Positions 278-49,385 of a stretch of 64,000 bases of DNA are shown here, one piece after another. A model generated the notes under the pieces. That model was not told the origin of the DNA, made no database searches, and saw only the letters and a list, made by a program, of their open reading frames with translations. The DNA lies in the NCBI RefSeq assembly GCF_034259325.1, contig NZ_JAXIVS010000013.1, forward strand, positions 124,001 to 188,000, given 5' to 3'. This DNA comes from Hyalangium ruber (GTDB lineage Bacteria > Myxococcota > Myxococcia > Myxococcales > Myxococcaceae). Within the stretch, counting starts at the first letter, position 1, and every line of letters starts with the position of its first letter. Both the position numbers and the translations under genes were made by a program.

Positions 278-958
<681 letters not shown>

Positions 959-46263: not shown

Positions 46264-47691
46264 CTACTTGCGGACCGCCGTCAGCAGCGCCTCGATGGAC
46301 TTGCGCGCATCGCCGAAGAGCATGCGCGTGTTGTCCAGGAGGAACAGCGGGTTGTCCACGCCCGCGTAGCCGGCGGCCATGCCGCGCTTGAGCACCACCA
46401 CGAGCTTGCTCTTCCACACCTCCAGCACCGGCATCCCGTAGATGGGGCTGGAGGCATCATCCAGCGCGCCTGGGTTGACGATGTCGTTGGCGCCGATGAC
46501 GAGCACCGCGTCGGTGCTCGTGAAGTCGTGGTTGATGTGCTCCATCTCCAGCACGACGTCGTAGGGGACGCCCGCCTCGGCCAGCAGCACGTTCATGTGC
46601 CCCGGGAGCCGGCCGGCCACCGGGTGGATGGCGAAGCGCACGGTGACGCCCTGCTCGCGCAGCGCGCGGGTGAGTTCCTGCACGGCGTTCTGCGCGCGCG
46701 CCACCGCCATGCCGTAGCCCGGCACGATGATGACGCTCTTGGCCGTGCGCAGCCGGGCCGCCGTCTCGTCGACGGACAGCTCACGCACCTCGCCGGAGCG
46801 GGGACCCTCGGAGGGCTTCACGTCGCCGGTGCCGAAGCCGCCGAACACCACGTTGAGGATGGAGCGGTTCATCGCCCGGCACATGATGATGGAGAGGATG
46901 GCGCCGCTGGCGCCCACCAGGGCTCCGGTGACGATGAGCAGGTCGTTGGCGAGCACGAAGCCCGCCGCCGCCGCCGCCCACCCCGAGTAGCTGTTGAGCA
47001 GCGACACCACCACGGGCATGTCCGCGCCGCCGATGGCCATCACCAGGTGGATGCCTAGCGCGCCCGCCAGCACCGTCATGAGCAGCAGCCAGATGAGGCC
47101 CTGGCCGGGGCCCGAAGCGTTCACGAAGGGCACCGCCAGCCCGATGATGCCCGCCGCGATGCCGGCGTTGAGCAGGTGCCGGCCCGGCAACAGCAGCGGC
47201 TTGCCGGAGAGGGTGCCGCGCAGCTTGGCCCAGGCGATGATGGAGCCCGTGAAGGTGAGCGCGCCCACGGCCACGCCCACCCAGATCTCCACCATGGCGA
47301 CGACGTGGGCCGCGCCCCCGCCGGCCACCGCCGCGTGCTCCGAGCGGGGGGCCAGATAGGAGGAGATGCCCACCAGCACGGCGGCCAGGCCGACGAAGCT
47401 GTGGAGGATGGCGACCAGCTCCGGCATGCCGGTCATCTCGACGCGGCGCGCGAGCACGACGCCCACGGCCCCGCCGACGACCACCGAGCCGATGAGCAGG
47501 GCCATGCCGGGGCCCACGGCGCCGGCGCCCGTCATGAACCAGGTAACGCCGGCCACGGCCACGGCGAGCGCCATGCCGAGCATGCCGTAGAGGTTGCCGC
47601 GCGCCGCGGTCTCCTGCTTGGACAGGCCGCCGAGGCTGCGGATGAAGAGGACGCCCGACATCAGATAGGCGACGGTGGTGACGCCGTTCAT
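46264..47691 (-). CDS. pntB: NAD(P) transhydrogenase, beta subunit
   Basis: 475 aa. An N-terminal membrane domain with about nine helices (to 280) precedes the NADP(H)-binding domain III, with [63 protein letters not shown] split over the fold and the C-terminal [19 protein letters not shown]. It couples proton flow to hydride transfer from NADH to NADP+. The ATG overlaps the pntA stop by 4 nt (47688-47691). Convergent with the NYN-LOTUS gene. Confidence 0.96.
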
Positions 47692-49259
47692 GCGCCACCT
47701 CCGGGGTTGCGGCGGAACATCTTGAGCATGCGTTGAGTCACGAAGAAGCCGCCGCAGATGTTGATGGCGGCCACGAGCACGGCGAGCGCGCCCAGGATGG
47801 AGGCGAGATCAATCTCGCCGCCTCCGATCTGGAGCATGCCGCCGATGATGATGATGCCGCTGATGGCGTTGGTGACGCTCATCAGGGGCGTGTGCAGCGC
47901 GGGGGTGACGCTCCAGACGACCTGCCAGCCGACGAAGCACGCCAGGATGAAGACGGTGAAGTGCTTGAGGAAATCGGCGGGGGCGAAGCGGCCCAGGACG
48001 AAGAGCAGGGCGATGACTCCCAGGCCGCCAACCGTGGTGCCCCAGGCGCGGTTGGTGGGGGCCATGATGGCGTGCTGCTGGGGCTTGGCGTCCACGGGCG
48101 GCGGCTTGGGGGCCGGCTTCGGCGCGGGAGCGGGGGAGGGCTCCTTGCGCGGCGGCGGCGGCAGCAGCTCGCCTCCGTAGGTGAGCAGCGCCGGGCGCAC
48201 CACGTCGCTCTCCAGGTCCACGCGGAACTTCTCACCGGCTCCCATCTCGGTGATGAGGTGGACGATGTTGTTGGCGAAGAAGCGGCTGGCGGTGCCGGCC
48301 ATGCGGCTGGCCAGATCCGTGAAGCCGATGATCTTCACCCCGTTGAAGTCGACGATCTCCCCGGGCTTGCACAGCTCGCAGTTGCCGCCCTGCTCGGCGG
48401 CCATGTCCACCACGATGGAGCCGGGCTTGAGCTTCTCCACCACGTCCCGGGGCAGCAGGATCGGCGCGCGGGTGCCGGGCACCAGGGCGGTGGTGATGAT
48501 GACGTCCACCTCGGCGGCCTGCTTGCGGAACAGGGCCATCTCCGCCTCGATGAACTCCTTGCTCATCGTCTTGGCGTAGCCGCCTCCGCCCTCGCCGCTC
48601 TCCTGGATGTCGACCTGGAGGAAGGTGGCGCCCAGGCTCTCGATCTGCTCGCGCGCGGCGGCGCGGACGTCGAAGGCGCGGACCTCGGCGCCCAGGGCCT
48701 TGGCGGCGGCGATGGCGGCCAGGCCCGCGACTCCCGCGCCGATGATGAGCACGCGGGCCGGAGGCGTGGCGCCGGCGGCGGTGATCTGCGGACCGAAGAA
48801 GCCCTGGTAGTGCTGGGCCGCTTCGATGACGGCCCGGTACCCGGCGAGGTTCGCCATGGAGCTGAGCACGTCCATCTTCTGGGCGCGGCTGATGCGCGGG
48901 ATGCGCTCCAGGGCAACGGCGGAGAGCTTGAGCGACTGGAGGACGGGAGGCAGCTCCGGGTTGCGCTCTGGCTGGAGCAGCGAGATGAGCGTGGTGCCGG
49001 GGCGGGCCCGCTGAGCCTCATCCGGGGTAGGGGGCCGCACCTTCACGATGACATCGGCCGCCTGCCACAAGGCCTCGGGCGAGTCCGCCAGGGTGGCGCC
49101 CGCCTCGACGTAGGCGGCATCGGTGAGGCCCGAGTCGGTGCCCGCGCCCTTCTCGATCTGCACCTCGAAGCCGAGGTCGCGCAGCTTGCGGGTGGACTCG
49201 GGCGTGGCGGCCACGCGCCGCTCGCCCGGGAGGATCTCACGTGGAACGCCGATACGAAT
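47688..49259 (-). CDS. pntA: NAD(P) transhydrogenase, alpha subunit (apparent AUU start)
   Basis: 523 aa. NAD(H)-binding domain I (AlaDH/PNT N and C parts; [41 protein letters not shown]) is followed by a Pro-rich linker ([11 protein letters not shown]) and three to four C-terminal membrane helices, so it is the fused alpha1-alpha2 form. The start is unusual. AAGGAGG (49266-49272) sits 6 nt before an ATT at 49257-49259, which aligns exactly with Met1 of E. coli PntA (MRIGIPRE). The only upstream ATG (49310) has its G-rich run directly against it and adds 17 foreign residues, and no GTG or TTG lies between. Co-translated with pntB. Confidence 0.93.
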
Positions 49260-49385
49260 CGCCGGCCTCCTTGATAAAGGTGCGCGGACGATAGCCGTAA
49301 ACGGCGCCATCCCCTACCAGAGAACAACCCAACGGGTTCCGGGGGGCCCGGTTGCCCTGGAAGGGGGCGTCCCGGCGAGCGGAGG

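Follow-up and report, generated by a model that had tools for sequence, protein, structure and literature searches.

An earlier note on this DNA had proposed that pntA, which encodes an NADPH-producing membrane enzyme and lies in a 64,000-nt stretch of the Hyalangium ruber genome (the window), starts at AUU. Not many bacterial genes are known to use this start codon. The locus raises the question of whether translation begins at the AUU or at an ordinary codon nearby, and what such a start would mean for production of the enzyme.

Identification of pntA and its predicted start codon

The features needed to locate the start are as follows.

47688–49259, minus strand: pntA, NAD(P)(+) transhydrogenase subunit alpha, 523 codons from the AUU plus the stop codon
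49257–49259, minus strand: predicted AUU start codon of pntA; the homologous position is ATT in 11 and ATC in 2 distinct PntA sequences that lack a canonical start nearby
49266–49272, minus strand: AAGGAGG, Shine–Dalgarno (SD) sequence of pntA, 6 nt before the AUU (shuffle P 0.0005)
49308–49310, minus strand: ATG at codon −17, rejected as an alternative start (no SD match, frame not conserved)

The gene from the TGA stop codon at 47690–47688 to the in-frame ATT is a clear PntA, with a full-length match above a curated cut-off. Its product scored 639 bits with TIGR00561 (cut-off 444), residues 2–518 aligning with positions 1–511 of 511, and 677 bits with NF006942 (cut-off 383). The Pfam domain AlaDh_PNT_N began at residue 4, and PDB 1x13, 'NAD(P) transhydrogenase subunit alpha', matched the product with an E value of 5e-112. 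The genome contained one close pntA; the only other match was 35% identical and covered residues 3–300. On the minus strand, positions 49259–49236 read ATT CGT ATC GGC GTT CCA CGT GAG, which encodes I/M-R-I-G-V-P-R-E. The TIGR00561 and NF006942 matches both began at residue 2.

The AAGGAGG that had been claimed 6 nt before the ATT at 49257–49259 was present at 49272–49266 of the minus strand, and an SD sequence this long at this spacing had a chance of 0.0005 in 2000 dinucleotide shuffles of a 60-nt leader. Reading in frame upstream, we found that the ATG at 49310 (codon −17) was the sole canonical codon before a stop at codon −19, so that, as claimed, no ordinary start lies between this ATG and the ATT. 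The first canonical codon downstream was a GTG at +15, and neither the ATG nor the GTG was preceded by an SD match as long as 4 nt. The span of 47688–49310 under which the gene had been listed is that of the ATG-based reading frame and had to be corrected, the gene from the AUU covering 47688–49259. The 61-nt start region folded no better than its shuffles (z +1.03), and no Rfam family was detected in the window at threshold. The window pntA, having no usable canonical start, a good SD sequence and a conserved codon, is predicted to belong with the genes that start at AUU or AUC.

Two further elements lie in the leader upstream of the AUU.

49288–49293, minus strand: TATCGT, −10-like box (consensus match), 28–29 nt before the start
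49294–49305, minus strand: GCCG-TTTA-CGGC, small inverted repeat read from the leader alignment of the close group (the window gene and its three nearest orthologues)

The −10-like box reads TATCTT in the three nearest orthologues, and the inverted repeat just upstream of it reads GCCGC-N5-GCGGC in all three, with a changed loop; the repeat is a possible operator. In the close-group leaders, indels of 1 nt occurred between the upstream stop and the ATT and the block of inverted repeat and TATCnT was conserved; the indels indicate that the longer frame is not conserved, and the leader is thus conserved in the form of non-coding DNA.

Conservation of the start codon among PntA homologues

Relatives consisted of the best 80 of 551 named, a family sample in which 94 of 96 genomes had some match, and a phylum sample in which 34 of 195 genomes had a match at E 1e-140. 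Codon 1 was read by alignment at 110 loci, and removal of 7 that were identical over 1700 nt left 103 distinct sequences. Fragments (L107, L121, and L122), paralogues of 44–46% identity (L108–L111 and L120) and distant sequences (L117–L119) were not counted, and L010 was counted as canonical for its GTG at −1, though GGAGGTG lies 6 nt before ATC in that locus. We left 25 sequences with less than 53% identity to the window protein, in which the site was ATG in 24 and AAA in one, out of the tree, which was made from the remaining 78.

The three nearest orthologues (G042, G040, and G041; 89–90% identity) kept the ATT, with AAGGAGG or AGGAGG 5–6 nt before it; the pntA of G042 has the same sequence as that of Hyalangium versicolor (L003), and no close pntA was found in G036–G039, which carry the same genus code as the three. 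The pattern AAGGAGG-N6-ATT, which the earlier note had suggested following in relatives, is conserved in this sense throughout the close group, and nine further sequences had ATT (L089, L112, L095, L100, L006, L013, and L014) or ATC (L101 and L036) with an SD match. In all 13 AUU/AUC sequences the SD match spanned 4 nt or more at a spacing of 5–7 nt, and in 12 of them it spanned at least 5 nt, a length that shuffles reached in 1–6% of trials per sequence. The weaker cases were L100 (4 nt, shuffle P 0.2) and the borderline L089 (P 0.057) and L112 (P 0.050).

Canonical codons were scarce around these sites. In L083 (from G040) there is a TAG at codon −4 with no AUG, GUG or UUG between it and the ATT; L089, L112, and L095 had no canonical codon between the upstream stop and the site, and L100 had none within 37 codons upstream. 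The next 24 codons downstream contained none in L083, L089, L112 or L095. In the remaining AUU/AUC sequences a canonical codon was present 7 to 38 codons upstream, and the nearest (−7 in L006, −8 in L101, −12 in L014, −14 in L013 and L084, −17 in L085 and L036) had no SD match. Further upstream, AGGAG precedes a TTG of L084 (codon −28) by 11 nt, and GGTG accompanies a GTG of L036 (codon −53).

Codon usage also bears on the site. With the site itself set aside, ATT accounted for 0–6% of Ile codons in 10 of the 13 genes, for 10% in L036, 12% in L101, and 38% in L095, and for one of 37 in the window pntA; an internal Ile codon at the site would mostly be ATC. Because ATT is rare among the Ile codons of most of these genes, the ATT at the site is not kept as an internal Ile codon: its presence at 11 of 13 sites had a probability of 6e-14, and at 8 of 10 sites, with the close group counted as one sequence, of 2e-9, sequences being taken as independent in both calculations.

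Alternative explanations of the start

The pntA frame could be translated from the ATG at 49310 to give a PntA with an extension of 17 residues, in which the ATT is an internal Ile codon. This ATG is the only in-frame AUG upstream and is the codon that gene callers limited to ATG, GTG, and TTG pick, but we consider its use very unlikely. The earlier note had called it poorly placed. It has no SD match, and indels disrupt its frame in relatives: upstream of the ATT, the three nearest orthologues carry a TTG (at −17 or −14) or nothing, with 1-nt indels between, and L083 has the in-frame TAG at codon −4. The −10-like box sits between this ATG and the ATT, so the 5' end of the mRNA would fall downstream of 49310. 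A start at 49310 would, in addition, leave the SD sequence without a purpose and make the ATT an Ile codon of a kind that is rare in this gene. Initiation further downstream, for example at the GTG of codon 15, which is present in the window, would give a shortened PntA; the absence of an SD match at this GTG, the loss of the beginning of AlaDh_PNT_N that it would cause, and the lack of any canonical codon among codons 1–24 in L083–L085, L089, L112, and L095 make this extremely improbable. That the ATT is a sequencing or assembly error for ATG has a vanishingly small probability, since the same ATT was found in four separate close-group genomes and in seven further distinct sequences; nothing was found in support of such an error. 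Frameshifting into pntA from another frame is unlikely in L089, where the last 70 nt of the leader have no ATG, GTG or TTG in any frame. We conclude that pntA has no ordinary usable start and almost certainly begins at AUU, as the earlier note had proposed; the proposal is strongly supported by the SD sequence, by conservation and by the lack of a usable alternative.

We also searched the whole 10.8-Mb genome for this arrangement. The pattern AAGGAGG-N4–8-ATT occurred 25 times, compared with 8 times for the backwards pattern, and 15 of the 25 sites opened a frame of at least 60 codons. At the pntA site GC3 was 0.94 and the frame extended 18 codons upstream; the eight other sites with GC3 of at least 0.84 had upstream frames of at least 50 codons holding canonical starts. 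The runner-up, L134, which has no canonical codon upstream, was rejected, its DUF5953 domain starting at residue 63 and an ATG lying 41 codons downstream. Among the 15 frames, only that of pntA looks like a coding start without another usable start. A looser second form of the SD, GGAGGTG-N3–5-ATY, gave 200 matches against 85 for the reversed control, and pntA may not be the only AUU/AUC-start gene of the genome.

Phylogenetic distribution of the AUU start

A tree of the 78 PntA proteins was calculated after removal of the first 8 residues; it is a quick tree with many unresolved forks. All 13 AUU/AUC sequences (11 AUU and 2 AUC) fell in one clade of 35 mostly myxobacterial sequences (SH-aLRT 98). 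The start type changed at least 4 times on the tree compared with a shuffled mean of 12, a count that gives no direction, does not distinguish gain from loss of AUU, and treats sequences that are not independent. No sequence inside the clade had a canonical codon at the site, whereas AUG, GUG or UUG occupied the exact codon in 31 of the 43 sequences outside it (Fisher 3e-12), where the pntA of other bacteria encodes the same protein with a homologous N-terminus; ATT, ATC or ATA was at the site in no distinct sequence outside.

The other 22 of the 35 clade sequences use GTG or ATG upstream of the site, at codon −1 to −3 in 21 of them and at −19 in one, and their codon at the site is ATC in six, TCG in five, ACC in three, and others in the rest, but never ATT. 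These 22 sequences show that AUU is not needed for function. The simplest reading would be a single loss of AUG near the base of the clade, after which AUU was retained and, in a few later cases, the start shifted to GUG or AUG 1–3 codons upstream.

The upstream starts were also poor in SD sequences. At the nearest canonical start of the 22 sequences, a match of at least 5 nt was found in none and one of 4 nt in six. When the best in-frame canonical start within 25 codons was taken, an SD of at least 5 nt was present in 1 of 35 sequences inside the clade (L094, with a TTG at −5) and in 14 of 43 outside (P 0.001), and one of at least 4 nt in 8 of 35 and 29 of 43, respectively, so the contrast is graded and not absolute. 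The clade is composed of two architectures, an SD with AUU or AUC (13 of 35) and an upstream GUG or AUG without an SD of at least 5 nt (22 of 22 upstream-start sequences), and as a whole it appears to steer clear of the usual pairing of an SD with AUG at pntAB. A −10-like box 6–8 nt before the upstream start, the arrangement of a leaderless mRNA, scored at least 4 in 5 of the 22 sequences (0.8 expected); 17 had no such score.

Two side observations concern such boxes. In L093, L094, L099, and L104, a CATATT box lies 6–8 nt before the GTG of pntA, which suggests a leaderless mRNA. In the paralogous PntA genes L108–L111, TATGCT was seen by eye 7 nt before the ATG.

Organization of pntAB and proposed effect of the start

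The gene that follows pntA is pntB.

46264–47691, minus strand: pntB, adjoining pntA; Pfam PNTB, 624 bits (cut-off 31.7)

With the stricter NF006974, its product scored 629 bits, below the cut-off of 689. The ATG of pntB at 47691–47689 overlaps the TGA of pntA by 4 nt, with GGAGGTG just upstream. The 4-nt overlap was found in 12 of 12 testable AUU/AUC sequences, although in L095, L006, and L036 an ATG one codon later (1-nt overlap) would serve pntB equally; in the 22 other clade sequences it was found in 19, while pntB started at +4 in two and the locus ended early in one.

These arrangements suggest that pntA production is restrained at translation initiation. The initiator tRNA would decode the AUU at 49259–49257 as Met to give MRIGVPRE, and the near-perfect SD sequence 6 nt upstream would recruit the ribosome and partly offset the weak codon. 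Since pntB starts inside the stop codon of pntA, this single weak initiation probably sets the level of both subunits through coupling, and the AUU would be an inherent brake on an enzyme that sits in the membrane and translocates protons. By analogy with the output of AUN starts in Staphylococcus aureus, in poor medium about 10% of that of AUG, and with IF-3 discrimination, low pntA output is likely. An AUU start read with Met, a strong SD sequence, and a throttle on both subunits very probably form the best explanation of the locus as a whole.

Like other AUU starts, that of pntA would be expected to give more output when IF-3 is scarce. The proposed tie between NADPH supply and IF-3 through this start is plausible as a reasonable extrapolation from infC, and a static low-output start fits the same data. 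We give about an even chance to the reading that the AUU is static and low in output, or near-neutral and offset by its strong SD, with no signalling by IF-3. The weak codon is accompanied by SD matches, as this reading expects, and the AUU gene cvfC1 of S. aureus has low output with no medium-dependent effect, according to PMC13009471. Set against it, PMC4611024 and PMC2268962 describe discrimination by IF-3 against such codons in Escherichia coli, from which some sensitivity is expected. The same sources describe IF-3 as antagonizing both non-canonical and leaderless starts in E. coli (PMC2268962, PMC4611024). A broader proposal, in which pntAB is an IF-3-gated operon throughout the clade, with two start architectures through which NADPH supply would be linked to IF-3, seems to us unlikely; a point against it is that no canonical start has a 5-nt SD in 29 of the 43 sequences outside the clade either. 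In Myxococcus (M. xanthus), the IF3 gene is dsg, which is needed for development, judging from reference titles in PMC2129111.

Putative start codons of infC

The window also carries a gene for IF-3 itself.

278–958, plus strand: infC (IF-3), one of two copies in the genome, with a putative start at AUC (278–280) or AUU (281–283)

The AUC/AUU start that had been noticed for infC was borne out: AGGAGG at 264–269 is followed after 8 nt by ATC at 278–280 and ATT at 281–283, and the first canonical in-frame codon is a GTG at 362 (codon 29). We prefer AUC to AUU as the probable start on the basis of spacing. Downstream of this copy, on the opposite strand, lies a galactokinase-like gene (1014–2141). 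The second copy (L208, at G000:C15:105353–105964) is 73% alike, and a scan of stretches around the two copies found no L35 or L20 motifs nearby. An infC match was present in 26 of 27 genomes searched, with two copies in six (G000, G040, G041, G042, G014, and G015). Among 32 copies read, 23 had no canonical in-frame codon between the upstream stop and a point some 15 codons inside the match, and nine (L179, L185, L188, L191, L198, and L206–L209) had at least one. By eye, the usual codon at the infC N-terminus was ATC, and in four copies of genus g4 (L187, L189, L192, and L196) it was CTG, at which these genes appear to start, with AAGGAGT or AAAGGAGT followed by CTGGCTCTCGC. No co-variation of infC and pntA start types was seen by eye.

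Discussion

E. coli infC starts at AUU. Genes of this kind, among them the infC of the window, resemble pntA in having a non-canonical AUN start behind an SD sequence without a canonical alternative; the product of infC, however, is the discriminating factor itself, which makes autoregulation possible, whereas pntA is metabolic and has no direct IF-3 feedback. In S. aureus, infC starts at AUA, according to PMC13009471. A reference title in the same paper (Binns and Masters 2002) gives an AUU start for E. coli pcnB, which is, like pntA, a non-infC gene with an AUU start limiting its expression, but is another gene in another phylum. A further parallel is given by S. aureus cvfC1 (AUU) and ccpN (AUA), for which PMC13009471 reports conserved starts, extended SD sequences, and, in poor medium, an output of about 10% of that from AUG. 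The conserved non-canonical start with an extended SD is shared with pntA, and ccpN also touches central metabolism; these Firmicutes genes are known from ribosome profiling and reporters, whereas the pntA start is predicted from sequence. Borrelia burgdorferi pncA/BBE22, described in PMC13398362 as having an AUU start missed by databases, is likewise an enzyme gene of nicotinamide-nucleotide metabolism, but it lies on a spirochaete plasmid and encodes an unrelated protein. Of 66,438 ancestral AUG/GUG starts reconstructed in a survey of start-codon evolution, 2 had switched to AUU (PMC5622118). We found no paper on an AUU-starting pntA in the open-licence PMC literature, and pntA is predicted to be a new, deeply conserved addition to the small set of native AUU-start genes.

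Callers limited to ATG, GTG, and TTG would misplace the start of pntA, as the list of open reading frames for the window does. In this central metabolic operon, AUU appears to have persisted through deep divergence, and its retention, although a single substitution would restore AUG, speaks for selection in favour of a weak start. The AUU of pntA provides a natural experiment on the purpose of AUU starts.
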